Below are positions 1 through 25,792 of a stretch of DNA of 39,809 nt, in pieces. This stretch comes from a virus, in the IMG/VR virus record IMGVR_UViG_3300035034_001520, positions 1 through 39,809 of that record; one strand, written 5' to 3'. The first letter of the stretch is position 1. Each line of letters opens with the position of its first letter. Made by a program: the position numbers and the translations under genes. A model generated the notes under the pieces. It did not search any database, was not told where the DNA came from, and saw only the letters and a list, made by a program, of their open reading frames with translations.

Positions 1-24
1 TATCGGCGCTCGCTTATCTTGTGC
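1..24 (+). repeat. 3' end of the DGR variable repeat (VR)
   Basis: Bases 1-24 align without gaps to bases 298-321 of the template repeat. The differences are template A to G at window positions 8 and 12, template A to C at 18, and one template T to C at 24. The first three are the adenine-specific substitutions expected of mutagenic retrohoming. The rest of the VR lies left of the window, so its length and the position of the initiation-of-mutagenic-homology site cannot be read. Confidence 0.7.
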
Positions 25-160
25 GAAAAACGGTAAGCTGTATGTAGGAGCTTATCTAGGTACTACACAAGTTAGTAAATTAAGGAGTGTTAGCGGTACT
101 GTTATTAGTGGTAGTAAAACTATCGGAACATTCAGAACAGAAGCCCAAGCAAACGTATAA
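1..160 (+). CDS. DGR variable (target) protein, C-terminal end only
   Basis: The reading frame is open from base 2 to the TAA at 158-160, giving the last 52 residues of a protein that begins outside the window. It opens with IGARLSCAK, which matches the end of the frame encoded by the template repeat at about 190-321 (IGTHLYCVK). IGxRL-type endings are usual in the C-type-lectin-like variable domains of DGR targets. About 43 residues rich in Gly, Ser, Thr and Val follow the variable part, so variation is not at the extreme C-terminus. It is probably a tail or receptor-binding protein, inferred from the DGR and the late-gene position. Its domains cannot be seen here. Confidence 0.75.
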   Translation, partial: IGARLSCAKNGKLYVGAYLGTTQVSKLRSVSGTVISGSKTIGTFRTEAQANV

Positions 161-189
161 AAATATAGGCAATAAGACAAAAACAGTAA

Positions 190-321
190 TCTGAATTCTT
201 CTCGGGTGGCGTATTTCGGTGGTAATCTCTCGGTTGGGTCGAATGCGGGGTTCGCTAATCTCCAGTTGAATAATTCAGCGACGAATACGAATGCGAATAT
301 CGGCACTCACTTATATTGTGT
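190..321 (+). repeat. DGR template repeat (TR)
   Basis: Non-coding template for mutagenic reverse transcription. Read in the target's frame it encodes a typical DGR variable-domain pattern (FGG, then NAGF, then LNNS, then NIG) with many AAT and ACG codons, so adenine changes would fall on surface residues. Its 3' end matches the VR at the window start. It sits between the target gene and the reverse transcriptase on the same strand. The left boundary is approximate because the matching VR is off the window. A 72-codon frame runs through it but is best explained as the VR frame mirrored in the template, not as a separate protein. Confidence 0.75.
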
Positions 322-346
322 AAAAACAAAAAAACAAAAAGTCTTA

Positions 347-441
347 TTGCCTTGCCTCTCGGCAAAACACAAAACTAAAAAACATATTGTGTTGGTAGGT
401 TTACTCTCGAAAACTCAATTATAAAGCACAAGATTTGTGCT
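347..441 (+). other. Stem-loops between TR and reverse transcriptase
   Basis: Three consecutive perfect stems occur here: TTGCC/GGCAA at 347-351 and 361-365, AACACAA/TTGTGTT at 366-372 and 387-393, and AGCACAA/TTGTGCT at 425-431 and 435-441. In the Bordetella phage DGR, RNA downstream of the TR is structured and needed for priming cDNA synthesis. These stems are candidates for that function, by inference. The last stem ends three bases before the ribosome binding site of the reverse transcriptase and could also affect its translation. Confidence 0.5.
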
Positions 442-455
442 ACAAAGGATTAAAA

Positions 456-1817
456 ATGAAAAGATACGGTAATATTTACAGTAGTGTTTATACAATTGAA
501 AATCTTAGATTGGCACATAAACGAGCTAAAAAAGACAAGAGTTATTATAAAGAAGTTAAAATGATAGATTTAAATAAAGATTATTATTTAAAGCAAATTC
601 AATTAATGCTAAAAGAAAAAACTTACTATGTTTCTGATGTTGATTATACAATGTTTGAAAAAAGTGATAAAGGTAAAATAAGGCAAATATTCAAATTAGA
701 TTATTTTCCTCATAGAATCATTCAACACGCATTGCTTATCGCAATAGAGGGGGTTATGTTTAAAGATTTAATATCCAACACTTTTTCTTCGTTACCTACT
801 CGTGGGATTCATAAGGCGTTAAGTAAATTAGATTATGATTTAAAAAATTATAAGTGTGAAACAAAATATTGTTTGCAAATGGATATTAGAAAATTCTATC
901 CAAATATAAATCATAGCATTAATAAAGAACAATATCGCAGAAAATTTAAAGATAAAGATTTATTATGGTTAATTGACATGCTGATTGATAGTTTAGGGGA
1001 AGAATGTGGGATAGCAATTGGAGCCTTATTTTCTCAATGGGATGGCAATTTTAATCTATCAACGTTTGACCATTTTATAAAAGAAGAAATTGGAATTAGG
1101 TTTTATTATCGATACTGTGATGATTTAATAATATTGAGCAACGATAAGGAGCAATTGCATGCAATTAGAAAACAGATAGAGATATATTTACTTAATAACT
1201 TAAAACTACAACTTAAAAATAATTACAAGGTATATCCAGTTGATGTACAAGGGATAGATTTCGTTGGATATAGACATTTTAGAGACTATATATTACTTAG
1301 GAAATCTACAAGTAAAACCCTTATTAGAAAAATGAGAGATATAATGACAAAAATAGATAAAGAAGAAGTTTTTACTTATAGTGATTATTGTAGTATTAAT
1401 AGTTATAATGGGTGGTTAAAATGGTGTGATGGAAATAATTTATATAAAAAATGGGTTAAACCGTTAGAGATTTATAAAAATCAATATTATAATAGAGTGA
1501 TAAAAAATAAGAAAAGTGGAGGTATAGTCTTGCATAAATTCTCAGATATTAACAAAGGATGCCTAATTATGGCTGGAGAAAAAATAAAAATAGGAGAAGT
1601 ATTAGATAGAGATATCCAAGTAATTAGTTATAAAGTTAGCAAAAGCAAGTATAAAAAAGATGAACCTCTTTTAACTTTGAATATAATAATAGAGGGCACA
1701 CCTAGAATTATATTTACAGGTTCAAAAATACTACGACAACAGTGTGAGGAATATGATAATCATATGCCATTTGAAACAAAGATACGAAATTTTAATAAAT
1801 GTTATACATTTGTATAA
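456..1817 (+). CDS. DGR reverse transcriptase
   Basis: A 453-residue group II-intron-like reverse transcriptase that would copy the TR transcript into adenine-mutagenised cDNA for replacement of the VR. Palm motifs are visible: LQMDIRKFYP near residue 141 (first catalytic Asp), IGALFSQ at 188-194, and YCDD at 220-223. The (I/V/L)GxxxSQ motif in place of QGxxxSP is diagnostic of DGR enzymes. The ATG at 456 is preceded by AAAGGA at 444-449, a better start than the in-frame TTG at 435 inside a stem-loop. The C-terminal third (about 300-453) is basic and probably thumb plus a family-specific extension. No Avd-type accessory gene is recognisable beside it. Confident as a DGR RT. Confidence 0.93.
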   Translation: MKRYGNIYSSVYTIENLRLAHKRAKKDKSYYKEVKMIDLNKDYYLKQIQLMLKEKTYYVSDVDYTMFEKSDKGKIRQIFKLDYFPHRIIQHALLIAIEGVMFKDLISNTFSSLPTRGIHKALSKLDYDLKNYKCETKYCLQMDIRKFYPNINHSINKEQYRRKFKDKDLLWLIDMLIDSLGEECGIAIGALFSQWDGNFNLSTFDHFIKEEIGIRFYYRYCDDLIILSNDKEQLHAIRKQIEIYLLNNLKLQLKNNYKVYPVDVQGIDFVGYRHFRDYILLRKSTSKTLIRKMRDIMTKIDKEEVFTYSDYCSINSYNGWLKWCDGNNLYKKWVKPLEIYKNQYYNRVIKNKKSGGIVLHKFSDINKGCLIMAGEKIKIGEVLDRDIQVISYKVSKSKYKKDEPLLTLNIIIEGTPRIIFTGSKILRQQCEEYDNHMPFETKIRNFNKCYTFV

Positions 1818-2087: not shown

Positions 2088-3071
2088 ATGGAAAAGATAT
2101 ATGCGAAACTCATAAATAAAGGGTTAAAAACCATTGAAGATGTCCCAAACAAACTATTAATGCAAACTAGATTGCTATTGCCAGAATATGAAGCTAATAT
2201 ATTAAAAGTATTTTATGATTCAACTGGTATAAATATTGATAAATTAAAAGATGAATTAGTTAATATTACAGAGTCATTTACCTTATTAAACAATGATGAT
2301 AAAATGACACTTTTATTCCAAGATATTAAAGAAGAAGTCAAAGAAATAAGAGAAGAAATTCTCATTCCTACTGATGTTGAAATTACACCTCAAGTTCTTA
2401 ATGAACTTGGGGAAGTAATTCAAGCTCCAGTTACTGAGGTTCAAGATGTCGTTACGTATGGAGAGGTAATAGACACAATTTATACCTACTACAGACGTGG
2501 TATAGAGTTGAAGGCTATCGAAAAGGTACACATTGAAAGTGTTGAAACAACTGTACCAATTAAAAATTTAAATGAATCTGAGACATCTGTGAGCGATGTG
2601 ATAGTAGAAGAAGTTGAGAAAATTTATACTCAAATAGAAGTACCTTATACAGAAGAAATTGAAGTTGAAGTATGGAATGAGTTTGATTTTCAAAGTGTTA
2701 AAGATGCTATTGATTTAGTTATTGAAAATCATGACCCACATAAGGGAGAAAAAGAAGAGAGTATAATTTTAGCTTCTCAACAGTGTCAAATTAAAATATT
2801 TGAGGGGTTTGAATCAGATTGTCTTGTAGAAGCTAAACATTTCGATTGTAGTATGACAGACCAAGCAAATATTCAAAGGCTTGCACTTACTGCTCTTATG
2901 GGTTTAAGTGGATATACTAGTGAAGAAACTCATTGGAAGGGCACTGGAGAATTAGAATGTTATAATTTTGAGTATGCTCAAATACTTCAATTGGCAACAG
3001 ATATGAAGAAACATATAGAACTATGTATTAATGAATTTAATGCAGAGAGGTTGGTTATATTAAATGCGTAA
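2088..3071 (+). CDS. Tail-end protein: XkdX-like N-terminus, DUF4376-like C-terminus
   Basis: A 327-residue acidic protein. The first 35 residues (MEKIYAKLINKGLKTIEDVP) resemble small XkdX-type phage proteins. The middle (about 60-225) is rich in Glu, Val and Ile. The last about 80 residues (FDCSMTDQANIQRLALTALMG, then THWKG, then LATDMKKHIELCINEFN) resemble the DUF4376/tail-fibre-assembly-like domain that closes many phage tail proteins. It may therefore be a fusion of usually separate small tail proteins. It starts 3 bases after the previous stop. A structural or chaperone role in tail-tip assembly is inferred from this resemblance and the late-gene position only. Confidence 0.65.
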   Translation: MEKIYAKLINKGLKTIEDVPNKLLMQTRLLLPEYEANILKVFYDSTGINIDKLKDELVNITESFTLLNNDDKMTLLFQDIKEEVKEIREEILIPTDVEITPQVLNELGEVIQAPVTEVQDVVTYGEVIDTIYTYYRRGIELKAIEKVHIESVETTVPIKNLNESETSVSDVIVEEVEKIYTQIEVPYTEEIEVEVWNEFDFQSVKDAIDLVIENHDPHKGEKEESIILASQQCQIKIFEGFESDCLVEAKHFDCSMTDQANIQRLALTALMGLSGYTSEETHWKGTGELECYNFEYAQILQLATDMKKHIELCINEFNAERLVILNA

Positions 3072-3584: not shown

Positions 3585-4640
3585 ATGTTTAAACTAGACA
3601 AATTTACATCACAAAATGTTGGTGAACTTACAGATTTTGATATGATACCCTACAAACTAACAGGTGTGGACACTCTTCACGCCCAAGGCTTTACAGGACA
3701 AGATACGAAAGTTGCTGTAATAGACACAGGATGTGATTGGAACCACACTATGTTAAAAGACAACATAGTTATAAAAACTGAAAACCTTTGTGGTTCTTTA
3801 GGGGGGAGCATGGACGATGATGGACATGGAACTTGTGTTGCAAGTACTATTGTCACTCTTGCACCACAGTGTGAAATAATTCCTATTAAAGTTCTTATGC
3901 CTTACTATGGTGGAGAAAATGCTTGGGTTATAGCTGGTGTTCGTAGAGCAGTTGAGTTAGGTGCTGATGTTATAAACATGTCACTGTCTTCAAATATGAA
4001 AATAGGAAGTTCTGACCACATTGCTTTTGAAAACGCTATAGATTATGCAAACGAAAATAACATTTTCGTGGTTGTAGCTAGTGGGAACACAGGTAAAGAA
4101 ACTACTTTATTTCCAGCTTGTTTTGATAAAGTAACAACTGTTGGTGCTGTTGATGTAAATAAGCACGAAGCACTTTTCAGCACCTTAAGTGACAAAGTTG
4201 ACGTTTGTCAAGTTGGTGTGGATTTAGTAGGTGCAAAACTTAATGGTGGATATGTAAAAATGTCTGGAACTAGTATGGCTACACCTATGGTTACAGGAAT
4301 GACAACATGTCTTGTTGGTAAGTATAAAGAACAACACGATGGAAGACGTCCTACTGGGACTTTTGTTAATAACATGCTTCGTTTACTAGCTATGGATATT
4401 GGAGTTAAAGGCATTGACAACAAGAGTGGTGCTGGCTTCATTAGTTTTAATCCTAATGCTAAAATACTAGACTTTGAAACTGGAACTGATTTCTTCACAA
4501 GCAATGGTGAAAAAGTTCAAATGGACGTAATTACACAGAGAATCAACAATAGAAATATGCTACCCGTTAGATACGCAAATCATGGTAAGTTAGTTTGTTG
4601 GGATAAAAATGAACCTAACGAGTTTACTATTGTGGGATAG
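3585..4640 (+). CDS. Subtilisin-like serine protease (S8 family)
   Basis: A 351-residue peptidase with the complete subtilisin triad: Asp47 in VAVIDTG, His81 in DGHGT and Ser230 in SGTSMATP, with oxyanion Asn168 in ASGN. AAAGGAGGG precedes the ATG. No signal peptide or long propeptide is seen, so it is probably made in the cytoplasm, and export or virion packaging would need another route. After the catalytic domain, residues about 310-340 (ITQRINNRNMLPVRYA) resemble part of a copper-amine-oxidase N-terminal/stalk repeat, as in the papain-like protein downstream. It lies between tail and holin genes. Roles in virion maturation, tail processing or host surface digestion are all possible. Activity looks intact. 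Confidence 0.93.
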   Translation: MFKLDKFTSQNVGELTDFDMIPYKLTGVDTLHAQGFTGQDTKVAVIDTGCDWNHTMLKDNIVIKTENLCGSLGGSMDDDGHGTCVASTIVTLAPQCEIIPIKVLMPYYGGENAWVIAGVRRAVELGADVINMSLSSNMKIGSSDHIAFENAIDYANENNIFVVVASGNTGKETTLFPACFDKVTTVGAVDVNKHEALFSTLSDKVDVCQVGVDLVGAKLNGGYVKMSGTSMATPMVTGMTTCLVGKYKEQHDGRRPTGTFVNNMLRLLAMDIGVKGIDNKSGAGFISFNPNAKILDFETGTDFFTSNGEKVQMDVITQRINNRNMLPVRYANHGKLVCWDKNEPNEFTIVG

Positions 4641-6325: not shown

Positions 6326-7324
6326 ATGAGAGATTATAGACAAATACCATGTGATTTACAAGTCCTACCAAAAGACAAGAGAGACTACACACTAGAAATG
6401 TTCAAATTGAGTGAGGATAAACTTTATCCAAAAGAGTATGTAGTTCCTTTCAACACCCCAATCTTAGACCAAGGAAACTCTAGTATGTGCTTAGACTTTA
6501 CATATAGAAGTATAGAGGAAGAGCAATATGTAGCAAAGACTGGAGAATATAAAGAGTTTGCTAATGGCTTTATGTATGGACAGAAAATCTTTTCACACAT
6601 GGAGGGTATGATTGAGAAATTCGATGTAATTTCATATGTCAAAAAGGGTATCCCTTTCGCAGAGGATTTTAATATTGTTGGAACAGCTTTAGAGTGTGAA
6701 GCATATTTTAAGACAAATGCAACAAAAGAAGTGAAGAAGAAAGCAGAGCTTCATAGAAATAGAAGTTACTTAAGTGTTACTACACCAGAGGAAGTTATAA
6801 AAGGATTGGTTGAGTTTGGTACAAGTGGTTATATAGGAGTAATGGTTTACAATAACTTCTATGATAGTAAAGTTGGTGGTATGGTTCCAATGCCAAGTGG
6901 TAAAGAAATTGGTGGGCATGCTATGAAACTAAAAGGCGTCAAATTTATCAATGGTAAACAACATTATGTAGTTCAAAACTCATGGGGTGAGGGATTTGGG
7001 GACAATGGCTTTGTTTATATAGATTGTGAGAACCCTTGTATTTTAAACATGAGACTGTTTACAGATGCTACCCCAGAAAATGAAATCATAGAGTTGTCTA
7101 TTGGAGATAAAACTGTTGTGACATTAAAAGAAAACATAGAGCTAGACATTGCACCTTTTATAGTCAATGGCAACAGAACCGTTGTTCCTCTAAGATTTAT
7201 TAGTGAAGTATTGGGCTACGATGTTGAGTGGGCTAAAGGTGGGGGAACTAAAAAGCAAGGACTAGTAACAATAAGTAAGAAAGTATCTAGAAGTGATGAC
7301 TTGTATATAAAATCAAAACAATAA
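6326..7324 (+). CDS. Papain-like cysteine protease with C-terminal stalk domain
   Basis: A 332-residue C1-type peptidase: Gln49 (oxyanion) and Cys55 in DQGNSSMCLDF, His198 in GGHAM and Asn218 in QNSWGEGFG complete the site. Residues about 258-318 form a separate domain with the copper-amine-oxidase N-terminal (stalk) pattern IVNGNRTVVPLRFISEVLG, usual in secreted or surface proteins of Firmicutes. No signal peptide or inhibitory propeptide is evident. AAAAAGGAG precedes the ATG. It is the last gene of the rightward unit and ends just before a terminator. A role on the host surface or in the virion is inferred; the substrate is unknown. Confidence 0.88.
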   Translation: MRDYRQIPCDLQVLPKDKRDYTLEMFKLSEDKLYPKEYVVPFNTPILDQGNSSMCLDFTYRSIEEEQYVAKTGEYKEFANGFMYGQKIFSHMEGMIEKFDVISYVKKGIPFAEDFNIVGTALECEAYFKTNATKEVKKKAELHRNRSYLSVTTPEEVIKGLVEFGTSGYIGVMVYNNFYDSKVGGMVPMPSGKEIGGHAMKLKGVKFINGKQHYVVQNSWGEGFGDNGFVYIDCENPCILNMRLFTDATPENEIIELSIGDKTVVTLKENIELDIAPFIVNGNRTVVPLRFISEVLGYDVEWAKGGGTKKQGLVTISKKVSRSDDLYIKSKQ

Positions 7325-8253: not shown

Positions 8254-8824
8254 TGTTGTTTATCCTTTCTATCTTTTCCATTATATCTAAAGCGGTTTCT
8301 TTTACACAATCATTCTTAACTATAAAATCAACCTCTTCCAATATAACACTATAGGAAAATCTTTTGATGTCATCTTCTAGTCTTCTCTGCCACTCTTGTT
8401 TGTCGAAGTCCCCTCTTTTCAAACACCTATTTCTTCTTACTTCCTCGTCTACATCTAAGAAGAAAGATACTACCTCTTCACCAAAATGTTTTTGGAATTC
8501 TCTTAGCCCAATCATATCTAAAACAACTACATAGTCCTTATTATCTTCAATAGCGTTATCTTCTACACCATAATACCACCTACTAGGTTTTCCGTCAACT
8601 ATTGTGTCGTATGCCCTATGTTCTACTAAAGAGTTGTTTTCTATTAGTAACTCAAACTTACTGTTCGATATAAAGTTATAGGGATTGCCTTGACACTCAC
8701 CAACTCTCATTGGTCTTGTTGTGGTACTTACTATGAAGTTGTAATTAAACTTACTCTCAATTTCTCTAGCTACGCTATCTTTACCACTGTTACTAAAACC
8801 ACATATAACTATTTTCTTACCCAT
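8246..8824 (-). CDS. Guanylate-kinase-like (d)NMP kinase
   Basis: A 192-residue kinase with P-loop GFSNSGKDS (residues 9-17), the guanylate-kinase signature STTTRPMRVGE with nearby YNFIS, and an acidic VVLDMIG strand. It probably phosphorylates dGMP or another dNMP using ATP. The length is close to bacterial Gmk. It sits between thyX and the nucleotidase gene, in keeping with remodelling of the host dNTP pool. A fold of this family seems sure, but specificity could have shifted in the phage. Confidence 0.85.
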   Translation of the reverse strand: MGKKIVICGFSNSGKDSVAREIESKFNYNFIVSTTTRPMRVGECQGNPYNFISNSKFELLIENNSLVEHRAYDTIVDGKPSRWYYGVEDNAIEDNKDYVVVLDMIGLREFQKHFGEEVVSFFLDVDEEVRRNRCLKRGDFDKQEWQRRLEDDIKRFSYSVILEEVDFIVKNDCVKETALDIMEKIERINNNG

Positions 8825-8828
8825 ATAT

Positions 8829-10568
8829 TTACCCCCTAAATATTTCTTCTTCTAAATCTAAGAAGATTTCTGGTAGGTGTTTTACAAACTCATCGTATAC
8901 TTGAATAGCCAACACTCTAATTTCTGGGTGGGCAAATTTACTAGCTCTCAGCTTAATAAAGTGTCTCCATTCTCTTAGATTACAAGTCATATTAATCTCA
9001 GTTTTTACACCAATAGGCAAAACACTTCTAGCTTCTTCTGGTTTCGCTTCTAGTTTTATTAGTTTTAGATAAGACATTTCTGCATTCTCCATGGCTTCTA
9101 ACCAACACTCATACTTTTCTAAATCTTTTTCATTGGCTAGGTCATATTTAAAACCGCTCGCTATGTCTAAAACATTGATACCATTACCACTTTTACTATG
9201 ATTGACGTAGCGTGTGCTCTCCTGAGCGTATGAGGCTAGTCTATGTCTAACAATTTCGTGGCTATTTCCGCACCATACAGGCTTTCCATTCCTCATAACA
9301 TAGAGTCTATGGTTGCTTTCGAGTTCTACGCAATAAACATAGCCATCATAATATTTAATATATTTTGTATCATCTTTCGCTCTAAATAAGTGTTCTCTCC
9401 TATCTTTTAGAGATATGACATATTGTTCTACGCATTTTGAAAGTATACCATTTGGAAAAACTCTATCTCTTCCCTCTTTGCGTGCATATGATGCATTTTT
9501 GCCAACCAATAATGCTAACTCCACTATATCTTCACAAAAATTTTCACTTGCTGAATATATTTGGAACCCATTTCCGTTCGTCATCTTACTGCCATCACCT
9601 ACAATTACGCCTTCTAAGAAAAAATCTAAATCAACTTTTGATAAGTCATGGAACATAAACCTAGGCATTTTTAAATCGTATGTTTTAGAGCAACGATACC
9701 CAATATTATACTCTTTTATAAAATGATAATGCAACCAATAAAATAATATCGGACTATTAATCAGAAACTCTGAATCATATTTAGTATAATCTAGCCCTAA
9801 ATCTTCTAATACATTTTCAATATATTCTCTGCCGCTTGGCTTTATTTGAGTTATAACTATTCTGTTTCCCCCACCATAATTTTTACCAAAACTTATACTA
9901 CCATCAGTTACCCATAATCCAAGGAATTTAAAAAAGGCATCTGATTTTAAATATATATTATCGTATTTTTTACTAGTTAGATTTTTTGAAAAATCCTCTA
10001 TTTTAAAAAAATCTGAGCCTTCATTTTTTATTGGATTAGCAGATTTATTAAATTTATAGGCTTTATTAGTCATGTCCTTTGATTGTATAAATTTCCATAC
10101 TCTTGTTTTCTCGCTTCTTTTATTGTAGTCATATACCCACATATTGTGATTTGGTGTAACAGCTAAATCAATTTGTGTTGTTTTATACATATCTAGATTT
10201 CCTCTAAATTTTTCCTTTATTTGTTTTTTTGATTTAGACCACACTATGTTGTTTTCTTCGTCCAATGTATAAAATTCGTCTTCCTTAGATGTGTTTTTAA
10301 ATAATTTCCAACCATCTTTTGTTAGTACTTTTGTTTCGTCATCATAACAACATCCCCTATTGGTGACGAATTTAATAGTCACATTGACATGCTCAATCAT
10401 GGCTTCGTGTCCTCTTAATACCAACATTTTTACAAACTTAGAAGCTGATTCATCTGTTATTTTATCCTCTGACTTATAACATGTTCTACCCACTTGCTCG
10501 ACTAGTTCTAGCGTTAAGTCTCTATTTATAGGAGTTAAAAACTCTACTTTCGGTTGAATTATATTCAT
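8829..10568 (-). CDS. thyX: Flavin-dependent thymidylate synthase ThyX, with intein
   Basis: A 579-residue precursor. Residues 1-73 and 436-579 join to a 217-residue ThyX, the normal size, making dTMP from dUMP with methylenetetrahydrofolate and FAD. The ThyX signature is RHRLASYAQESTRY, just after the intein. Residues 74-435 form an intein (separate entry) placed between TNRGC and SHEIVRHR, right before the active-site motif. A dUTPase gene nearby would supply dUMP. The upstream ClpP-like gene ends 48 bases away. ThyX function should depend on protein splicing. Confidence 0.93.
   Translation of the reverse strand: MNIIQPKVEFLTPINRDLTLELVEQVGRTCYKSEDKITDESASKFVKMLVLRGHEAMIEHVNVTIKFVTNRGCCYDDETKVLTKDGWKLFKNTSKEDEFYTLDEENNIVWSKSKKQIKEKFRGNLDMYKTTQIDLAVTPNHNMWVYDYNKRSEKTRVWKFIQSKDMTNKAYKFNKSANPIKNEGSDFFKIEDFSKNLTSKKYDNIYLKSDAFFKFLGLWVTDGSISFGKNYGGGNRIVITQIKPSGREYIENVLEDLGLDYTKYDSEFLINSPILFYWLHYHFIKEYNIGYRCSKTYDLKMPRFMFHDLSKVDLDFFLEGVIVGDGSKMTNGNGFQIYSASENFCEDIVELALLVGKNASYARKEGRDRVFPNGILSKCVEQYVISLKDRREHLFRAKDDTKYIKYYDGYVYCVELESNHRLYVMRNGKPVWCGNSHEIVRHRLASYAQESTRYVNHSKSGNGINVLDIASGFKYDLANEKDLEKYECWLEAMENAEMSYLKLIKLEAKPEEARSVLPIGVKTEINMTCNLREWRHFIKLRASKFAHPEIRVLAIQVYDEFVKHLPEIFLDLEEEIFRG
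9264..10349 (-). mobile_element. ThyX intein with LAGLIDADG endonuclease
   Basis: Codons 74-435 of the thyX ORF (362 residues). It begins with Cys in CYDDETKVLTKDGWK (block A) and ends VWCGN, followed by Ser as the +1 nucleophile. Block B includes LAVTPNHNM. Two LAGLIDADG-type helices are visible: FLGLWVTDGS and FLEGVIVGDGS. The penultimate residue is Gly rather than His, a known variation. Cys73 precedes Cys74, so the junction could be one residue earlier, but the host motif reads best with Cys74 as residue 1. Nothing suggests it is inactive. Confidence 0.9.
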
Positions 10569-15744: not shown

Positions 15745-17998
15745 TTAAAAATCCTTTCAGAAAAGTTTGTTTATATTTTACTTTAGAGGTAGATATTGCG
15801 TAAGAAAAAGCCTTCGTTTCAGCACATATACAACAAAACTCTTTAGCTCTTGTCATGGCTGTATATATCCACTCTTTGCTAAGTATAGTATACCCACTAA
15901 AATCCATACCAACAATAATACATTTATTCTCACTACCTTGCATAGAGTGTCCTGTTATAGCATACCCAAGCAATATTGAAGACCAATATTTTTTATTAAC
16001 TACAACTCTGCCAACAATATCAAAATCAACAATTATATCTTTGGAAGATATTTCCACGATACTTCCTAAGAAGCCATTAAATATAAACGTAGGAACACCA
16101 TCTTCGTTTTTCGTATCGTAGTTATTTCTTTTAACTAGTATTCTATCACCCTCTCTTATGGTAAAATATACTTTATCGTACCCATTCAAAGTATAGATAG
16201 AAACTTCTTTTTTACTATTCGATTTTGGATTAACAAATTCTTGAATTTCAGAGTTTATGTCAAAAGCAGAAGCGTCCCCATTAAACCTAGTTGGTACAAC
16301 GACCGTAATGTCTCTAGGGTCTTTGTATTTGTCATACTGTTCTTTATAGTTCTCCATTATTCGAAGAGAAGTGAAAAGCTTATCGTTATATATGTCTAAT
16401 TTTAGGTCTTGTAGTATACCTCTAACTTCTTCTCCGCACCAACCTTTTCCAATAATATTCTTACCATGTCTAATACTTACACTGTCCATTATGATTGCAG
16501 ATTTTTTAGCTTGTCTATGTATCTCTGTCAGAGTTATTGCTTGAACAATATTACTATCCAACATATCTTTAAAAACATTAAGACTTCCTATACTCTCTAG
16601 TTGCCCTTCATCCCCTAAAACTACCAACTTGGCTCCAGTTCTTATTGATTTAATTAAGTCGTAAAATATCTCACCACCCACCATACTACACTCGTCTAAA
16701 ACTACTATGTCGTAAGGAAGTGGATTTTCAGCATTATAGGTGAAGCCTTTTTCTGGGTTGTATCCCAAAAGTTTGTGTATGGTAGAACCCTCTAAACCAG
16801 TTACCTCTTGCAACCTACTGCTAGCTTTTCCAGAAAGTGCCGTTTGAGCAACGGATAGGTTGTCTAGCACTGCCAATGTCGCACTAACAGAGCTTGTTTT
16901 TCCCGTACCACCAAAACCTGTTACTATACAAACATTGTTTTTTATAACTAATGATACAGCTCTTCTTTGCTCAACCGTATACTCCCAACCTTGTAGTAAC
17001 TCCATTTCTTTCAACACTTCTTCTGTTTTGCTAACCTCTACTTCACTTTTCTCTCCATTCATTATTCTCAAAAGCTCTTGAGACACTCTTTTTTCTAGTT
17101 CATAATAATATCTTAAGGCAACAAACGTTCTTTCTTCGTCCCAAACTAAAGTTGTTTTATCATATAGGTAATGCATTGATTCAGAAAAACCATTGCTGTC
17201 CACCTCTCCTATTGCTTCTACTAGATTGAAGTGTAGGTCATTTGGTGTTACCCAAGAGTATCCATTCTCAGCTCTTTCTCTTAGAAAGAACTCAATGAAA
17301 GACGATATTCTAAACACGCCATTAGTGGGATAACCCATAGCCATAGCCAAAGCATCGGCTTTTCCCCAACCTATTCCATCTATTTCAGAAGCCAACACAT
17401 AGGGATTAGTTTTTATTATGTTTACTATGGTTTCTGGATTTTTGTATCTATCTACTAATTTATTAAGCAGTGATTGAGTGAAGTTTATGTTTGGCAACTC
17501 TACAAAAATTTGACTAAAATCTTTATTGTTTTCATATTTGGAGATTATTTTATCAAAGGTAGACTCTCCAATCCCCTTAACACTCAAAAGAGCCTCTCTA
17601 TCTTCATTTACTATACAATCAAAAGGATTTTCTAACTCTAGGTATAGGTTTTCTACTTGTTTGCTTGTTAAGAATATAGATAAAAAGTCTTTCCTTTGCT
17701 CATCTGTTTCAATAGCATAGTCTGTAAAGGAGTAGTCTATTTCATACGATACACCATATTCGTTGTCTATTTCCTTTGCGTACACTATGTACTCAACATT
17801 GTCTTTTAAATCTAAACTAGGAAGCAGTCCCACAAGCTTATAACTTCCATACTTGTTTTTTCTAAACTTGCCGTCCATACTCTCTACAAGAGTGCAAAGG
17901 GCAACCCCCCAAGTGCCACTTTCGACACTTGAAGCTCCCTTTGGGTGCATAATTGAATTGACTTTAAACCTTCCTTTTAGCATTGGTCTTTTATTCAT
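15725..17998 (-). CDS. RecD-like superfamily 1 DNA helicase
   Basis: A 757-residue helicase of the RecD2/TraA kind. The N-terminal part (to about 300) includes helix-hairpin-helix-like segments (LSVKGIGESTFDKI and ASEIDGIGWGKADALA). Walker A is GFGGTGKTS, Walker B is VVLDECSMVG, motif III is VLGDEGQLESIG, motif IV is EIHRQAKKS, and motifs V-VI are ITGHSMQGSE and YTAMTRAKE. It probably unwinds 5' to 3' in recombination-dependent replication. ATG at 17998 follows AAAGG by 7 bases; an upstream in-frame TTG at 18004 fits less well. It overlaps the end of dnaE by 8 bases. Confidence 0.9.
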   Translation of the reverse strand: MNKRPMLKGRFKVNSIMHPKGASSVESGTWGVALCTLVESMDGKFRKNKYGSYKLVGLLPSLDLKDNVEYIVYAKEIDNEYGVSYEIDYSFTDYAIETDEQRKDFLSIFLTSKQVENLYLELENPFDCIVNEDREALLSVKGIGESTFDKIISKYENNKDFSQIFVELPNINFTQSLLNKLVDRYKNPETIVNIIKTNPYVLASEIDGIGWGKADALAMAMGYPTNGVFRISSFIEFFLRERAENGYSWVTPNDLHFNLVEAIGEVDSNGFSESMHYLYDKTTLVWDEERTFVALRYYYELEKRVSQELLRIMNGEKSEVEVSKTEEVLKEMELLQGWEYTVEQRRAVSLVIKNNVCIVTGFGGTGKTSSVSATLAVLDNLSVAQTALSGKASSRLQEVTGLEGSTIHKLLGYNPEKGFTYNAENPLPYDIVVLDECSMVGGEIFYDLIKSIRTGAKLVVLGDEGQLESIGSLNVFKDMLDSNIVQAITLTEIHRQAKKSAIIMDSVSIRHGKNIIGKGWCGEEVRGILQDLKLDIYNDKLFTSLRIMENYKEQYDKYKDPRDITVVVPTRFNGDASAFDINSEIQEFVNPKSNSKKEVSIYTLNGYDKVYFTIREGDRILVKRNNYDTKNEDGVPTFIFNGFLGSIVEISSKDIIVDFDIVGRVVVNKKYWSSILLGYAITGHSMQGSENKCIIVGMDFSGYTILSKEWIYTAMTRAKEFCCICAETKAFSYAISTSKVKYKQTFLKGFLNGKTYE

Positions 17999-19420
17999 AC
18001 TCAAACCTTTCTGTTGTTATTGAGGCTTCTCCATTTTCGTATATCTCCTCTATTTTTGCCACACTGTGCTGATACACACTATTGGCATAATTTCTAGGGA
18101 TAAATTGGTCGTCTCTTCTATACCCAACAACCATTATTTTAGCACCTCTTGTGAACCAAGATTTCTCCATAATTTTCTTCTTGCCACTATCTTCATTGTA
18201 AATTGACATTTGTTTGTCGTAATTGCTAAAAGCCCCTTGGTAGAACTTAACCTTAACTACTCCAAACTCTGTTAGTAATGTAACACTATGCTTCATCTTG
18301 TTTTTATCTAGCACAGTTCCACCTATTCTAGTTAATTGATACTTTTTAAACTCTTTGTTTTTTGTCCTTACCACTTCGAAAGCTTCCATAGATGGCAACT
18401 CAAAGAAGTTTGACAAGTCATAAACATCTTTATTTAACTTAGACATTTCATGCTCATGGTAGTAAAAACTCAAACTATCCATTTCCCATTTAGATATTGT
18501 TCCATTACAATACTTGTCCCAATCCCCACTCATTCCCAAACTTACAATATTATCCCTATACAGTTCCAACGTACTTTCTAAACCTAACCAATCAGATAGT
18601 TTTTCGATATGTTTGGAAACTACTTTCTCAATTGAACTTGTCCTATATTCTACTGTGCAGTCATCTGTATATTCAAAATCCTCTCCCTCTTTTAACTCAC
18701 CAACAAATATTTCAGAAAAATACTCTAGTACATCATCTCTGTTAGGCAAGACATTCCACTTTCTATTTCCCTTTTTACCAACAAAATACTCTTTTGTGTT
18801 TATGAGTTTTAGGAACATGTATTCCCTAACTTGACCTAATAATTCTTTTGGAATTAATTCCATCTCTACTAGCTTTGCTAAGTTGCCAAAGTCCAAAGGC
18901 TTCTCTCTGTTGTTTCCTAGTATATGTATATTATACAAGAAACTCTTCATAGTGTCAACCCTATTTCCATTTATTTTCTCAATTTCGTCAAAAGCACCAG
19001 CTTTTATTAGGTTTATCATAGCAAGTTTTGGTAAATTTGTCTTTTCTATAAAGTCGGCAAGAGATAAATATGGTCTATTCTCTATTATTAGGTTAGCAAC
19101 ATCATCTCCTATCCCATTTATACCTTTCAAACCAAAGACTATTGCATCGTTTTCAATATCTGGGTAAAAACTAAACTTAGCTTTGTTGATGTGTGGTAAT
19201 GAAATACTAACACCATTGCCTTGAATATCACCTATTGCGATTGCTATCTTGCCATAATTAGTAACCTTCTTTTTATTATTGATTGACTCATCTTCTATTG
19301 CCGATGCGTTAACAGTTAAAACAGAAGTGTTCCAATATAACTTGTTAAATCTGTGATATAAGTTCATCTCTTGTAATGCTATTGCAGAGTAAGGCACAGT
19401 GTGATTCCTAGAGAAACTAT
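17991..19420 (-). CDS. dnaE: DNA polymerase III alpha (DnaE type), exon 2
   Basis: The C-terminal 476 codons of the phage polymerase after the group I intron. It resumes with SFSRNHTVPYSAIALQEM, the conserved GYxFxxSHxxxY segment of DnaE. A helix-hairpin-helix region follows (FGLKGINGIGDDVANLI, then LADFIEKTN), and the last about 150 residues form an OB-like region (RIGGTVLDKNKMKHSVTLLT). Joining bases 20438 and 19420 keeps one reading frame. It has no credible start of its own, so function depends on intron splicing. Its stop overlaps the helicase start. Confidence 0.9.
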
Positions 19421-20437
19421 CATTTCTACCCTCGGTTTCCCGATATTTATTAGGGGATTAGACTATATCTTGTGTGTGGAAGATTTGTCTATAATATAAA
19501 TTTCCATTTGTAATTTAAGTGAGATTTTCTCTCTCCTTTGCAAACTCTAGTTATTGCACCGTTATCTTTTCTGTCTATTGCTTTGTAAGCACTTTTCAAG
19601 TTTTCGTAAGTTTCGATTAGACTACCTTGCATATCATATTGACCAACCTTAACATTTTTCATCATCCTACTCTTTTTAAAAACCCCATCGTTTGGTTCTA
19701 GTCTTGAGTAAGACCAAACATACCCACCACCAATTCCACCCTCAATAGCACAAATAGATATACTTTTTATTGAGACATTGGTTTTACTCTTAGCTTGTTG
19801 TGCACTACCATATTTTTCAACAAATGTTCCATCAATGTTGTATTGATAAACGTTTTTTGTTTTTAGTAGTTTTGTTCTCACGGCGTGTTGCATATTACCG
19901 CTTGCATCAACAACTTCCAAGTTTTCAAGCATGTTGTTTACTTTGTTGCCATCAATATGATTTATTTGAAGCTTGGTGTCTATATCCAACCTTAAAAAAT
20001 ACTCTCCTATTAATCTGTGAACATATCTTGTGTATTGTTTGTTTTTATGACTTAGAGTATAAGACTCATAGCCGTTTGTACGATTAAACTTTCTTTTTAA
20101 CAGTCTGTTTGTTTCTGTGTTTATACAGTCACCGTTACTATAAATCGAATACTTTGTTTCACTGTTGTTTAAAAAAACTCTTTTATTCATTTCACTACTC
20201 TCTCTACTTCCACACACTTAGCACTTCGAATGGTAGCCTATCTCCCACCCTACTCCCTTACGGGATAGTCGTTGCACCTTCCTCTTTCAAGGCTTGGCAC
20301 AGGATTATCATATTGTTTCCAACTTAGACTTCCCCTGTTAGCCTACTCATTAGTCATTATTTCCCATGACTCCAAAAGTTAAGTAGACACCGCTAGGCAA
20401 TAGCGTTCACAAAATTTTAATAGGGCATAATGTTTTT
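19421..20437 (-). mobile_element. Group I intron in dnaE
   Basis: A 1017-base insertion. The exon end TAGGGT (20443-20438) pairs with the guide GCCCTA (20426-20421) to form P1 with the usual U.G at the splice site. The intron's last base is G at 19421. The first exon bases ATAGT pair with ATTAT next to the guide (P10). Splicing gives LGYSFSRNH, the expected DnaE sequence, with no frame change. Conserved core blocks lie at 19427-19466 and 20267-20300 and recur in the intron at 29766-30352. It contains an HNH endonuclease gene. Confidence 0.9.
19489..20190 (-). CDS. HNH homing endonuclease in the dnaE intron
   Basis: A 233-residue protein. HNH motif: residues near INHIDGNKVNNMLENLEVV, followed by NMQHA. 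Two NUMOD1-like DNA-binding repeats follow (VYQYNIDGTFVEKYGSAQQA and VGQYDMQGSLIETYENLKSA). It would cut intronless dnaE alleles to spread the intron. The ATG at 20190 is preferred to an in-frame ATG nine codons upstream because a GAGAGTAG element lies close before it; this choice is not sure. It looks intact. Confidence 0.88.
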   Translation of the reverse strand: MNKRVFLNNSETKYSIYSNGDCINTETNRLLKRKFNRTNGYESYTLSHKNKQYTRYVHRLIGEYFLRLDIDTKLQINHIDGNKVNNMLENLEVVDASGNMQHAVRTKLLKTKNVYQYNIDGTFVEKYGSAQQAKSKTNVSIKSISICAIEGGIGGGYVWSYSRLEPNDGVFKKSRMMKNVKVGQYDMQGSLIETYENLKSAYKAIDRKDNGAITRVCKGERKSHLNYKWKFIL

Positions 20438-22943
20438 ACCCTAATTGGATACCAATACACTCTTTCCAAATATAGTTTAGGAAATTTGGTCTAGTTCCTA
20501 GCTTCTTACCCACTTCAAAGAACAGCACTGTCATTTCTTCTATGTCTTTTGTCTTCTTCTTTGCTATTATTTTACGAAGTTTGTTTGCACCAACCATATC
20601 GAAACCAACAATATCTTTATCCATTGTCAACTCCATTACGTCTTCTTGCTCTATAGCCATCATGTTTTTATCCAAAAGATGTCTCTCAACAACTGCTATT
20701 TCTTTTGCATTTAAGCCATACTTAGCCATATCCTTATACGCTTCTTTTATGTCGTTCTTATACCTAGCGAATTTGTCCATTGGTGTCTCTCCATCTGAAC
20801 TCATTAGTCTCATAACAGAGTTAGCAAGAGCTAGTTCTTTCAAACTTCTAGGCTTTATTTTCTTTTGTGCTTGGTTTCCAACGTCTGTATCAAATTGAAA
20901 CAGTGATATAATCTCACTATTGTCAAGATACTCCCACATTTTTTCATCATCGTATTCTAAAACGTCTGGATGAAGAATTTTATTATAGGTATCTCTTATA
21001 TTTCCACTATGTTCGACTACTTTATCAAGTATTAGTAGGTCTAACTCAGTTCTTATTTTGTCTAAACCCTCTATTGTTAAGAAGTCTACCTTTAGCCCAC
21101 CCATATCCTCTGAATCATTCATATCGAACGCAGTAACAAGCTTGCCATTTGGAGACGTCATTATGGAGTTGTAATCTAGTATTGTGGTTGGATATATAAT
21201 AACCCCACTAGCATGAGTAGAGCGACCAACTATCAAACCTTCTATCTTTCTAGCCGTTTCTTCTACATGTTCATATGCGTCTATCTTCTCTTTAAAACCA
21301 TCTACCTTTTTTCTTTCCTTTGCTTCATCTCCATATAAACATTCGTCTAGAGACCATTGTTGACCTCTTTCTGATTTTATGTAGTCTGCCAACTCTTGTG
21401 CTATGTCATTGTTTATTCCCAATCCCCTACATGCAGTTAATAAAGCAGAGCGACTTCCTTCTTTTTTAAACGTACATATGTTTATTGTTTTGTCATAACC
21501 ATATTCGTCACTACCAAATTCTTTTGCAACAGCTTGAAATATCTGCTCTCTTTTTGAGGCTTCTGTATCCAAGTCTATGTCAGCAAGTTCTATTTTTGTA
21601 TGGTGTATATGTCTCCACCAAGGAAGATTGTGCTCAATTGGATTTAATTGGGATATATCTGTTAGGTAGCATAGGTAAAATCCTGTAACTGACCCCCTAG
21701 CAACACCTACTAGTGAATTTCCTTTACTGTCATCCCACATAATATCAACAATAATATCAACTAGATTATAATAAGAGGATAAGCTTTGTCCCAACTCTTG
21801 ACTTATAAGTTTAATTTGTTCTAACTCTATATCTATTCTATCAATATTCTCTTTGTTAAATTCCTGTTTTTTCTCTGAGAACCCTTGCTCAATATTCCAA
21901 AGTAGAAACACATCACTACCACTTTCACTTTTACTAAAATAGTCTATGTTTTTATGACTGCTGTAGTAGTCTTTGAAAATGTGGTCTAGCTTAATATTAC
22001 TAGGTAGTGGTACATTTGGTATTGCTGTTGGTTGAAACAGATTAACATCAGAGCATTTGTCGTGTATTTCCATTGTTGCTCTTAGCCCAACTTCTACCTC
22101 TTCTTGTGATAGGTAAGGCATCCAATCATATATCTCACTAGCTGTTTTCAAAAAAGTACTGTTGTAAAACTCCTCTGTCTCCCTATCCCCATCTCTACTT
22201 CTTAAAAAAGCAGAGTGCAATTCCTTCTCTTCCTCATTGAGATAATGAACATCGTTTGCTATTACATATTTAATTCCATAAGCGTTTGCTATTTTTAAAA
22301 GAACTTTATTGTATTCTTTTTGTTCCTCTGACTTACCAGCTTGCATCTCTATGTAAAAATCTTCCCCAAGCACACTTGTCATATAGTTTAGAAAGCCATC
22401 TACATCATCTCTTATTTGCTCTTCATTTGGGTTTTCCATATAGAGTAGCTCTAATATCTTAGAGCCTAAAAAAGACCCTAGACAAGCAGTAGAGCCAATT
22501 AAATGACCCTTATCTTTACCAACGACCTCTTTTAATTTGTCATAGGTTGTGGTTGGTCTCTCCAAACCTCTGTCAAAAAAACTGTTTTTCCAAGCAAACG
22601 AACTAAGTTCTTTGAGTTGTCTGTAACCAATTTCATCTTTTGCTATTAGTATGAAGTGATTGTACCTCCTACTAGGTTCAAGGCTTTCGTTCAAATAAAT
22701 TTCATTACCTAAGAGAACTTTAAAATCAGTGTTTGGATTATCCTCTTTTATTTTATTATAAGCTCTTATGGCTCTCAAATGAGAGCCTAGAGCATCGTGA
22801 TTTGTTACTGCTATACCATTCAATCCAATATCAAAGGCTCTATTTATTAAATCTTCCACCCTAATATTGCAGTCAATTATTCTAAGATTACTCATTTCAT
22901 CATGAGCGTGTATTTCTGTTATTTTTTCATATCTTTCAGCCAT
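20438..22943 (-). CDS. dnaE: DNA polymerase III alpha (DnaE type), exon 1
   Basis: The N-terminal 835 codons of a polymerase of 1311 residues after splicing. A PHP domain begins at EIHAHDEMSNL and AVTNHDALGSH. Polymerase motifs include LADIDLDTEASKR with the catalytic aspartates, GGLKVDFLTIEGLDKI, LFQFDTDVGNQA and VGANKLRKII. GAGAGGAAG precedes the ATG at 22943; an in-frame start farther upstream overlaps the promoter and recJ and is rejected. The frame runs three codons into the intron before a stop, so unspliced RNA gives a truncated polymerase. It is the phage's replicative polymerase by context. Confidence 0.92.
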
Positions 22944-22956
22944 AATTACTTCCTCT

Positions 22957-24705
22957 CTAAAACCAAAACTCTGTCTTTCTTTTATTATAACACACAAAGT
23001 CATATTCGTCAATGATTAATTGATAAAAAGTTTTTCCAGCCCATTCATTTATATTAACTCTACCTATTATATTAATTGAGAGCTTATCACTATTTAAAAA
23101 TGCCTCATCTAGGTCTAGAACAGTCTTCTCTACATTCTTGAAAGATATGGCTAAGATGTCTTTTGAGTCGTTTATTTGGAACTTTACCATGGTTTTAGCC
23201 TCATTGTATAAAATGTGACTTTTATCCACTATAATGTCTTTCACACAAATACATGGAGCCTCAAAACCCTTGCCATAGTGTTGTTCGTGTCTTCCCACCA
23301 CAGACATAAAATCACTTTTTAAGTCTTTTGCTTGTATTTCGAAATCTACTTCATAAACCTTTCCCTCGACAGAACTTTCTAACTCTTCATTCATTGAATT
23401 AACAAAATCTTGTAGGTCTGAACTATTATTGATGTTTATTCCAAACGCACTTGCATGCCCTCTAGCCCAATTAACACTTGCCATACTATCACACTTCTCT
23501 CTCAAGTCTTCAATGGGAGAATTGCTAAAATTTCTACCACTTCCACTAAAACTAATGCCATCTTTGTTTTCAACCACTACGAACGTTGGTTTATTGTATT
23601 CACTTGCTATTGAGTTAGCCAAAAGTCCAGTAAAAGACCTTCTCTCAATTGGTATCACTAGACTAATTACTTTGTCTCTCAACTTACTCTCTATCTCACT
23701 TCTATTACTTTCCAACAATTCGTTTTTAATATCATCTTGTGCTTTTTTTATATCCATAAGTTTGGGAATTTGCGACTCTATAAAAGAATTAGGCTTGATA
23801 AACCCCTTCTTCTTACTCTTATTGGAGAATGGATTACTATTAAAAACAATGCTATTTTCATCAATAAGACATTTGAAGAGTAAATTCTTCTCCTCTAGCG
23901 TACCCATTCTGTGAACTGCGTTTATTAGTGGAGCTATATAGAAGCTAATACTATCCATTTGGAAGCTTTTTATCTTATTACCATAATAGTCAATCAGATG
24001 TTTTAGAAACAGATTGTTTACGTTGGATAGTCCCTCCATTATGTAGTATCTGTTTTCCAACACCGTGGTGTCCATTAAATCGCTAACCATTCCAACAGCC
24101 ACAAGGTCTAAGAAGTAGTCTGCGTGGTTCATATTGTAAGCTTCATCAATAGCTTTACAAAACTTGTGCGCAACAGACACACCAGAAAGCTCCTTATTTG
24201 GAGAGCTGTCCATTTTAGGATTTATAACCACTGCATCATCACTATATCTTTCTGCCTCATGATGGTCGCAAACAACAACTTTCTTACCCATTTCTTTTAA
24301 TATCTTATGTTGTTCATAGTCACTAGAACCAGCATCTGCTATTAACAACACATCGAAATCAAAATCTCCCATCTCCTCTATAATAATCCCATGTTTTTTA
24401 CCACTATGGTTTAACCAAGATATTTTATTCTTATCATACACCTTACAAAGGTAAAGGTAGAGTAGGGCTGAACTAGTACTACCGTCCACGTCAGAGTCTA
24501 TTATGAGCCTAATTTTCTCATCGTTTTTCATTGACTTGACTAGCAAATCAACCCCCTCTCTCATATTTTTGATTATAAAAGGACTATCTACATTGTCTTC
24601 ACTGTAGTTAATCAAACCATTTAAACTTTCAATGCCTCTATTTTTTGCAAGAGTTTTCATTGGAAGTGCTTTGTAATTGTTTGTGCCTATTCTTTTATAT
24701 TTCAT
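22957..24705 (-). CDS. RecJ-like single-strand DNA exonuclease (DHH family)
   Basis: A 582-residue DHH/DHHA1 protein. Acidic metal-binding motifs are LIIDSDVDGSTSSALL, ADAGSSD and VVCDHHEAE. The DHHA1 part carries FSGSGRNFS and WARGHASAFG. The C-terminal about 130 residues are OB-like (VDFEIQAKDLKSDFM). It should degrade single strands 5' to 3' in recombination or mismatch repair. It overlaps the primase gene by 11 bases and is followed by dnaE after 13 bases. The dnaE promoter lies inside its 3' end. Confidence 0.88.
   Translation of the reverse strand: MKYKRIGTNNYKALPMKTLAKNRGIESLNGLINYSEDNVDSPFIIKNMREGVDLLVKSMKNDEKIRLIIDSDVDGSTSSALLYLYLCKVYDKNKISWLNHSGKKHGIIIEEMGDFDFDVLLIADAGSSDYEQHKILKEMGKKVVVCDHHEAERYSDDAVVINPKMDSSPNKELSGVSVAHKFCKAIDEAYNMNHADYFLDLVAVGMVSDLMDTTVLENRYYIMEGLSNVNNLFLKHLIDYYGNKIKSFQMDSISFYIAPLINAVHRMGTLEEKNLLFKCLIDENSIVFNSNPFSNKSKKKGFIKPNSFIESQIPKLMDIKKAQDDIKNELLESNRSEIESKLRDKVISLVIPIERRSFTGLLANSIASEYNKPTFVVVENKDGISFSGSGRNFSNSPIEDLREKCDSMASVNWARGHASAFGININNSSDLQDFVNSMNEELESSVEGKVYEVDFEIQAKDLKSDFMSVVGRHEQHYGKGFEAPCICVKDIIVDKSHILYNEAKTMVKFQINDSKDILAISFKNVEKTVLDLDEAFLNSDKLSINIIGRVNINEWAGKTFYQLIIDEYDFVCYNKRKTEFWF
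22984..23012 (-). promoter_or_regulatory. Leftward promoter for dnaE, inside recJ
   Basis: TTGACG (23007-23012 on the complement), 17-base spacer, TATAAT (22984-22989), with TGTGTG before the -10. It lies within the recJ coding region 41 bases before the dnaE ATG and would allow independent polymerase expression. Confidence 0.82.
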
Positions 24706-25792
24706 AATCTATGTCTCCTTTTATCTCTACCTTGCTTTTCATTAGCTCTTCTAATATTTCCTTACCTTTGTCAGTAGGACTATCTTTTTCTAAGATTAGG
24801 TTCTTATCATCAACAATAACGTAAACAGTGCAATAGTTTATAAACTTATCAGCTATTCTGAGAACGTTTTTATTAAAAGCATCTATCTTACTATCTGTTT
24901 GTTCTGGTTTATCCAATGCTATTATAACCTCATTAACACCAAGTTCGACTATTTTGTCTCTTTGGTAGTTGCTGACACTACTTCCACTAACACCTAAAGT
25001 GAAGCTGTTTTCTCCGTAGTATGAATCACATTGCATTGTCGACTTCTCTGCTTCGACTATCATCACTTTTTTAATCCTTTTTATTGCATCTTTGTTGTGA
25101 TTTAACCCAAAAAGATTGTGTTTTGTTTGATGTCGATAGTCGATTTTTTCTATTTTTAATGGTAAATATTTAGCTCCGCTCTCTGCGTCTTCTTTAATTA
25201 ACGCTCTACCCCTAATTCCAATCAAATCTCCAAACTCATTGAAGTGTGGTATGACTATTCTTGACCTAGTTATGTCAACACTTATGTCATATTTCTCCAT
25301 AGTAGGAGCCTCTATATGCTCTTCTAACCAACCTTTATAGTATCCACTAGCAAATACACCTAAGATTTCTTTGTTAAACTTCTTTAAACTAACTACTTCT
25401 TTCTCTTCTATTAGTTTGAAGTATTTGTCTAATATATCCCAATCATTTATCTTCTTAACATCAAAAAAACCTATCTTTTTTGAATGAGTTGAATATCCTA
25501 ATAGATTAGAAACCCACATAAGAGATTCATAAAAACCTTCGTTGAGAGATTTCATAACCAATCCAAAAATATTAAAACTTTCTTGACAACCAGTGTAACA
25601 ATGGAAGAGTTTACTATCTGTGTAGTAGTATAGCTTTTTACTATCTCCATGGTGGCAAACAGTTGGAAACTTTATAGTTGTCACATCACCACCCTCAAAA
25701 ACTTCTTCGTGGTAATCTCCCCCAAGAGCTTCTACTATTTGGACAATATCTTCATTGGTAATCTTTTCCAATAGTAAATCCTTATCTACCAC
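24695..25792 (-). CDS. DNA primase (zinc finger plus Toprim)
   Basis: A 365-residue DnaG-like primase that would make RNA primers. The N-terminal zinc-binding site is CHHGD followed by FHCYTGC. The catalytic Toprim domain has MIVEAEKSTMQ (Glu) and EVIIALDKPEQTD (Asp). A basic RNA polymerase core lies between (IVIPHFNEFGDLIGIRGRAL). It lacks the long DnaB-interaction domain of bacterial DnaG. Its start overlaps the helicase gene by 7 bases, matching a primase-helicase pair, and its end overlaps recJ. Confidence 0.9.
   Translation of the reverse strand: MVDKDLLLEKITNEDIVQIVEALGGDYHEEVFEGGDVTTIKFPTVCHHGDSKKLYYYTDSKLFHCYTGCQESFNIFGLVMKSLNEGFYESLMWVSNLLGYSTHSKKIGFFDVKKINDWDILDKYFKLIEEKEVVSLKKFNKEILGVFASGYYKGWLEEHIEAPTMEKYDISVDITRSRIVIPHFNEFGDLIGIRGRALIKEDAESGAKYLPLKIEKIDYRHQTKHNLFGLNHNKDAIKRIKKVMIVEAEKSTMQCDSYYGENSFTLGVSGSSVSNYQRDKIVELGVNEVIIALDKPEQTDSKIDAFNKNVLRIADKFINYCTVYVIVDDKNLILEKDSPTDKGKEILEELMKSKVEIKGDIDYEI

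Follow-up and report, generated by a model that had tools for sequence, protein, structure and literature searches.

A phage diversity-generating retroelement with an OB-like domain fused to its reverse transcriptase and a lectin segment displaced beyond the VR

The locus described here raises two questions: whether a reverse transcriptase (RT) gene preceded by only the last codons of its target belongs to a genuine diversity-generating retroelement (DGR), a device that lets a phage randomly rewrite a portion of a tail protein, and what to make of a target gene that runs on well past its variable part. The window, by which we mean the whole stretch of DNA analysed, is an entire linear IMG/VR record, 39,809 bases long and probably a fragment, that starts inside the variable repeat (VR). 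The element that it contains is a genuine phage DGR of a known kind, cut off at the contig end, and what sets it apart from known ones is the fusion of its RT to an OB-like domain and a displaced lectin segment after the VR. For the working model as a whole, a DGR that with its RNA, RT and OB-like domain hypermutates the C-type-lectin tip of a phage protein, we would give a probability of about 0.88. The features on which the argument turns are as follows.

1..28, + strand: 3' end of the VR, cut by the contig start, encoding IGARLSC-
2..160, + strand: C-terminal end of the DGR target, 52 codons visible with no start, an open frame in phase with the reading of the template repeat (TR)
32..157, + strand: post-VR tail, which a profile shows to be homologous to the C-type-lectin domain's beta1-alpha1 segment in DGR targets
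167..178, + strand: 5' arm of the TR-enclosing helix (AGGCAATAAGAC), in perfect 12-bp pairing with 341-352
190..325, + strand: TR
341..352, + strand: 3' arm of the helix (GTCTTATTGCCT), pairing with 167-178 and directly abutting the RT-17 hairpin
348..433, + strand: RT-17 spacer RNA (RF03020), starting with the hairpin TTGCC-TCTC-GGCAA
456..1487, + strand: DGR RT core (AIGALFSQ, YCDD), matching PF00078, phrog_1423 and an HMM of relatives (E 5e-157)
1512..1814, + strand: OB-like domain fused to the C-terminal end of the RT; homologues exist as free-standing ORFs next to DGR RTs
2088-3071, downstream of the RT: DUF4376 tail-fibre-like gene

The first 23 nt of the window are identical to TR 298-320 at 20 of 23 positions, a level that 2000 shuffles of the region do not approach (at most 15). 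The TR has five adenines in this stretch, and all three mismatches (two A>G, one A>C) are at these positions (chance 0.006); this is the adenine-specific change that the initial annotation had read in the VR tail. The match extends over TR 298-325 and about 28 nt of VR are in the record, so the bias seen here amounts to three changes, and there is one additional, non-adenine difference (T>C at position 24). The TR was delimited from the VR match, from its in-frame reading and by analogy with the TRs of relatives, which are 75-140 nt long; its 5' boundary is approximate because the VR is truncated. Read in frame it gives VAYFGGNLSVGSNAGFANLQLNNSATNTNANIGTHLYCVK, a typical C-type-lectin variable stretch whose eight AAY codons are the asparagine-rich codons remarked on earlier. 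When viral contigs were searched with the TR pattern, its adenines replaced by N, for the missing VR-bearing contig, no match was found. A search after the VR for an IMH and a stem-loop of the type found in BPP-1 gave a 6-bp stem at 34-54, which is no better than those of shuffled sequences (p 0.2).

The RT ORF (456-1817, 453 aa from MKRYG) is intact, carries the IGxxxSQ and YCDD motifs on which the initial annotation had relied, and matches PF00078 (E 5.7e-11) and phrog_1423 (E 6e-94). Its nearest neighbours in sequence are all DGR RTs, the closest being those of Psychrobacillus phage Perkons, L002 and L003 (50% identity each) and L004 (47%), and a further contig scan with the window RT added ten distant relatives at 27-35% identity. 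The relatives fetched were nine viral contigs, Perkons, the archaeal-virus records vir525 and ANMV-1, and one Bacteroides phage. The 12 RT relatives first examined all have the same VR-TR-RT order and nearly pure adenine changes; across the relatives analysed the order is target-VR-TR-RT, each pair showing as many as 32 changes at adenines and 0-2 at other bases, and in the four closest there are 24-32 adenine changes per pair and not one at another base. Near-purity also holds across the 31 relatives' TR/VR pairs that were scored, where the highest count of non-adenine changes in a single pair is three. The original assignment to DGRs is thus borne out by the complete VR-TR-RT cassettes in which the closest RT relatives all sit and by the adenine specificity of the changes, and we infer that the DGR has been active in the phage of the window.

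Several features lie beyond that first reading: a spacer RNA of the RT-17 family, a helix that encloses the TR, the OB-like domain fused to the RT, and the recognition of the 43-residue tail as a displaced C-type-lectin segment. Rfam RT-17 is a family of RNAs upstream of reverse transcriptases (RF03020). Its covariance model is matched over its whole length in the window at 43.3 bits, above the gathering cut-off of 40.4, and the spacer RNA is therefore a member of a known family; in relatives the same place is occupied by an RT-17, RT-18 or RT-3 match. The RT-17 region overlaps the last bases of the helix 3' arm, and the Rfam model begins inside that arm, leaving the TR-enclosing helix outside it.

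Folding of 155-456 gives a z-score of -3.4, with the 12-bp helix 167-178/341-352 closing over the TR. General duplex folding of the TR flanks gave a blurred signal, which became clear once the 3' arm was anchored at the hairpin. In this anchored test the 3' arm is fixed by the adjacent hairpin and the TR 5' flank is scored for pairing against shuffled flanks; the window's helix has p 0.003. An analogous, strongly covarying helix adjoins the same hairpin in most relatives. Under the same test the pairing beats 95% of shuffles in 22 of 26 loci (Fisher 1e-23). In 16 of 26 no 5' flank from any locus pairs better than the locus's own (expected 1). Independence is overstated in these figures, the loci being partly related. 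Among 13 gapless helices, stem positions 3-12 show three to five standard pair types and most positions are paired in 12-13 of the 13, although these arms were chosen for pairing and the anchored test is the fair one; the outer AGG/CCT end of the helix is constant in all 13. We infer that the helix may serve to bound the copied template or to stop the RT and terminate the cDNA. In BPP-1, cDNA synthesis is primed in the spacer 3' of the TR and ends at a motif in the adjoining 5' RNA (PMC12875486).

The RT continues after about residue 350 into a C-terminal domain of about 95 residues that finds no family match in Pfam or NCBIfam, only unnamed families among the PHROGs, and nothing when its profile is searched by sequence against solved structures. 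An AF2 model (pLDDT 87) suggests, as a moderate call, an OB fold: its structural neighbours are SSB, PriB, LEF-3 and RuvB-like domain II at Z 5-7, and the best of them, RuvB-like domain II, reaches Z 6.9, below 8. These neighbours are OB-fold nucleic-acid binders, and the domain may bind single-stranded nucleic acid; OB folds bind proteins and sugars too. In vir525 and ANMV-1 the homologue is a small gene of its own immediately next to the RT, and in L003 it lies slightly further off. A three-sequence profile of the domain alone, run against viral loci, returned 29 loci, 27 of which have a DGR RT within the fetched flanks; with L042, whose contig has its RT elsewhere, the count becomes 28 of 29, and the remaining locus (L039) has its OB copy near the contig end and no RT on the contig. 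The L042 contig carries the OB gene twice (8565-8858 and 24706-24876), one copy beside the RT and the other about 15 kb from it. The gene is mostly downstream of the RT, and in L016 and L033 it lies upstream, where avd sits in BPP-1. Two RTs carry the domain as a fusion, that of the window and that of Bacteroides phage BX-TP1 (E 3.9e-9), and RTs of other phages come up in structure searches; the fusion in BX-TP1 may be independent of that in the window, a point that the tree does not decide. No OB gene is detectable in the sequence examined of the close RT relatives L002, L004 and Perkons, and the domain is therefore not universal even within the clade.

The Avd accessory is present in many, not all, DGRs. 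Beside the window's RT there is no Pfam or PHROG match to it, and PF05635 is silent throughout the record, a result to be read with the silence of the control and the fragmentary contig in mind. The survey of Wu et al. 2018 reportedly described two DGR accessory genes. One of the DGR-associated proteins of Wu et al. is without a Pfam family (PMC10053308), and the OB protein may be this accessory gene, already noted there. The 2015 paper on ANMV-1 draws an Avd ORF, and its companion nanoarchaeal figure uses size and pI to match ORFs to Avd (PMC4372165).

Set beside known systems, the window resembles the DGR of Perkons (MT325768, L011), with its RT of 50% identity, VR-TR-RT order, C-type-lectin target, adenine-only changes (32 of 42) and enclosing helix (16 pairs in Perkons), but in Perkons the RT is unfused, no OB gene was found in the whole genome, and the target runs only 0.3 residues past the VR. 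With two archaeal viruses, ANMV-1 (KP703175) and Caudoviricetes vir525 (BK063673), the window shares the VR-TR-RT order and an OB homologue at the RT, which in them is a separate gene beside it whereas the window's is part of the RT. BX-TP1 (PQ571284) has, like the window, an RT with a C-terminal OB-like domain and a DUF4376 gene after it, but its RT is only 27% identical, its spacer RNA is RT-3 and its target ends 20 residues after the VR. The prototype, Bordetella phage BPP-1, has the same VR-TR-RT logic, a C-type-lectin target and the RT motifs; in contrast to the window, it has Avd and no OB domain, and the same anchored test finds in it no comparable TR-enclosing helix (p 0.93).

The open frame of the target stops at 160, about 43 residues past the VR as initially described, and the accompanying judgement that such an extension is less common agrees with the 31 relatives that have a detectable VR, in which the frame runs on for a median of 2.3 residues and for about 25 at most; the window's tail is the longest among 32 loci. 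That the tail might be a unique extra domain is ruled out by its match to a lectin segment. A beta1-alpha1 profile built from six relatives, with the window excluded, has this ORF as its sole match among 1014 in six frames (E 2.4e-13). In targets with the VR in view this segment normally lies about 170-200 residues before the VR, and the match therefore means that the lectin's first segment here follows its last. Together, the IGARLSC end and the segment match mark the variable domain of the target as a C-type lectin, the rest of the target being outside the contig; the protein is most likely a tail fibre. The displaced segment could be part of a permuted domain, the remnant of a truncated second copy, or an assembly artefact. 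The two ends of the C-type-lectin fold lie side by side.

The contig ends of the group bear directly on how this tail is to be read. Of 37 contigs, eight have their end at most 500 nt upstream of the RT, near the VR and TR, where 1.5 would be expected (p 6e-5), an approximately fivefold excess to which L015, L018, L022, L024, L027, L028, L029 and the window contribute. DGR repeats are where assemblies break, with loss of the target, and the excess both explains the missing target and keeps in play a chimera in which the first ~28 nt, the VR end, were joined to the lectin segment of another target, while the DGR itself would stand. Such a join would lie where assembly fails far more often than expected, and other contigs searched for the VR end followed by KLRSVSG gave four chance matches only, none with both VR and segment. 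However, the frame is open across the junction, the preceding residues AKNGK look natural for the segment, and no long repeat that might mislead an assembler is seen there; we consider the chimera unlikely. A decayed, inactive DGR, its target truncated or rearranged and its tail left over from a second copy of the target that a deletion had fused to the first, would account for a tail that is an N-terminal lectin segment stopping abruptly at AQANV* where homologues continue, and for the absence of the target's remaining parts from the window. It sits poorly with an RT ORF complete with its catalytic motifs, an RT-17 RNA and a perfect enclosing helix, all intact, and with a VR that in its first 23 nt differs from the TR at adenines alone, as after DGR activity, and is in our estimation distinctly improbable.

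An origin outside the DGRs altogether, as a retron, group II intron or defence RT beside a chance repeat, could point to NCBIfam matches of the RT to group II, retron and Drt models, but all of these are below cut-off, whereas the close relatives, like phrog_1423, are without exception DGR RTs with TR/VR pairs and the repeat identity in the window exceeds that of shuffles; we regard this origin as hardly credible. A genuine DGR remains our reading of the element. It is tempting to extend it, and to see in the OB protein, across phage and archaeal-virus DGRs, an alternative to Avd that works on a template presented as the loop of a covarying stem beside an RT-17 or RT-18 hairpin, with in this phage a circularly permuted lectin domain whose first strand follows the VR, but we hold this combination to be tentative and on the whole doubtful.

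The placement of the DGR at the end of a tail operon, also proposed at the outset, is at most plausible, the upstream tail genes lying outside the contig. Three divergent phages have a DUF4376 gene after the DGR RT (window 2088-3071; L014 5302-5787; L003 7006-7575, the last DUF4376-like by eye), and it may encode a tail-fibre protein that partners the target. In the window, genes for a subtilase, a holin and an amidase come next, and then replication genes on the other strand. Near the lysis genes are two proteases on the + strand, a subtilase (S8, 3585-4640) and a papain-like C1 protease (6326-7324) that carries a copper-amine-oxidase-N-like repeat. On the - strand, ThyX (8829-10568) and a DnaB-like helicase (25786-28470) each have an intein-like insertion with LAGLIDADG/homing endonuclease domains, and DNA polymerase III alpha (17991-23012) is split in two ORFs with a NUMOD1/HNH homing endonuclease ORF between them (19489-20217); no Rfam intron was detected. 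A further - strand gene (38707-39447) encodes a protein with a long low-complexity (G/S/N)-rich repeat and no Pfam match.

How the parts might work together can be outlined. In the transcript a long stem (167-178/341-352) would hold the TR in its loop, and the spacer hairpin of RT-17 would come next. The RT would bind this TR-spacer RNA, prime in the spacer and copy the TR with random bases at adenines, and it should come to a halt at the enclosing stem or close to it; the cDNA would then take the place of the target gene's terminal VR. We propose that the C-terminal OB-like domain keeps hold of the template RNA or of the cDNA being made, as the separate OB protein might do in relatives and Avd in BPP-1.

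For metagenomics, the excess of contig ends upstream of the RT is a warning that assemblies tend to lose DGR targets. For the mechanism, knowledge of DGRs rests almost wholly on the Avd-dependent BPP-1. If the RT's partner in DGRs that lack Avd is the OB protein, and if the stem defines the part that is copied, then one domain and one helix would be simple handles with which to test how template choice and cDNA ends are set outside BPP-1, and the RT-OB fusion would be a compact, single-protein version for laboratory use.
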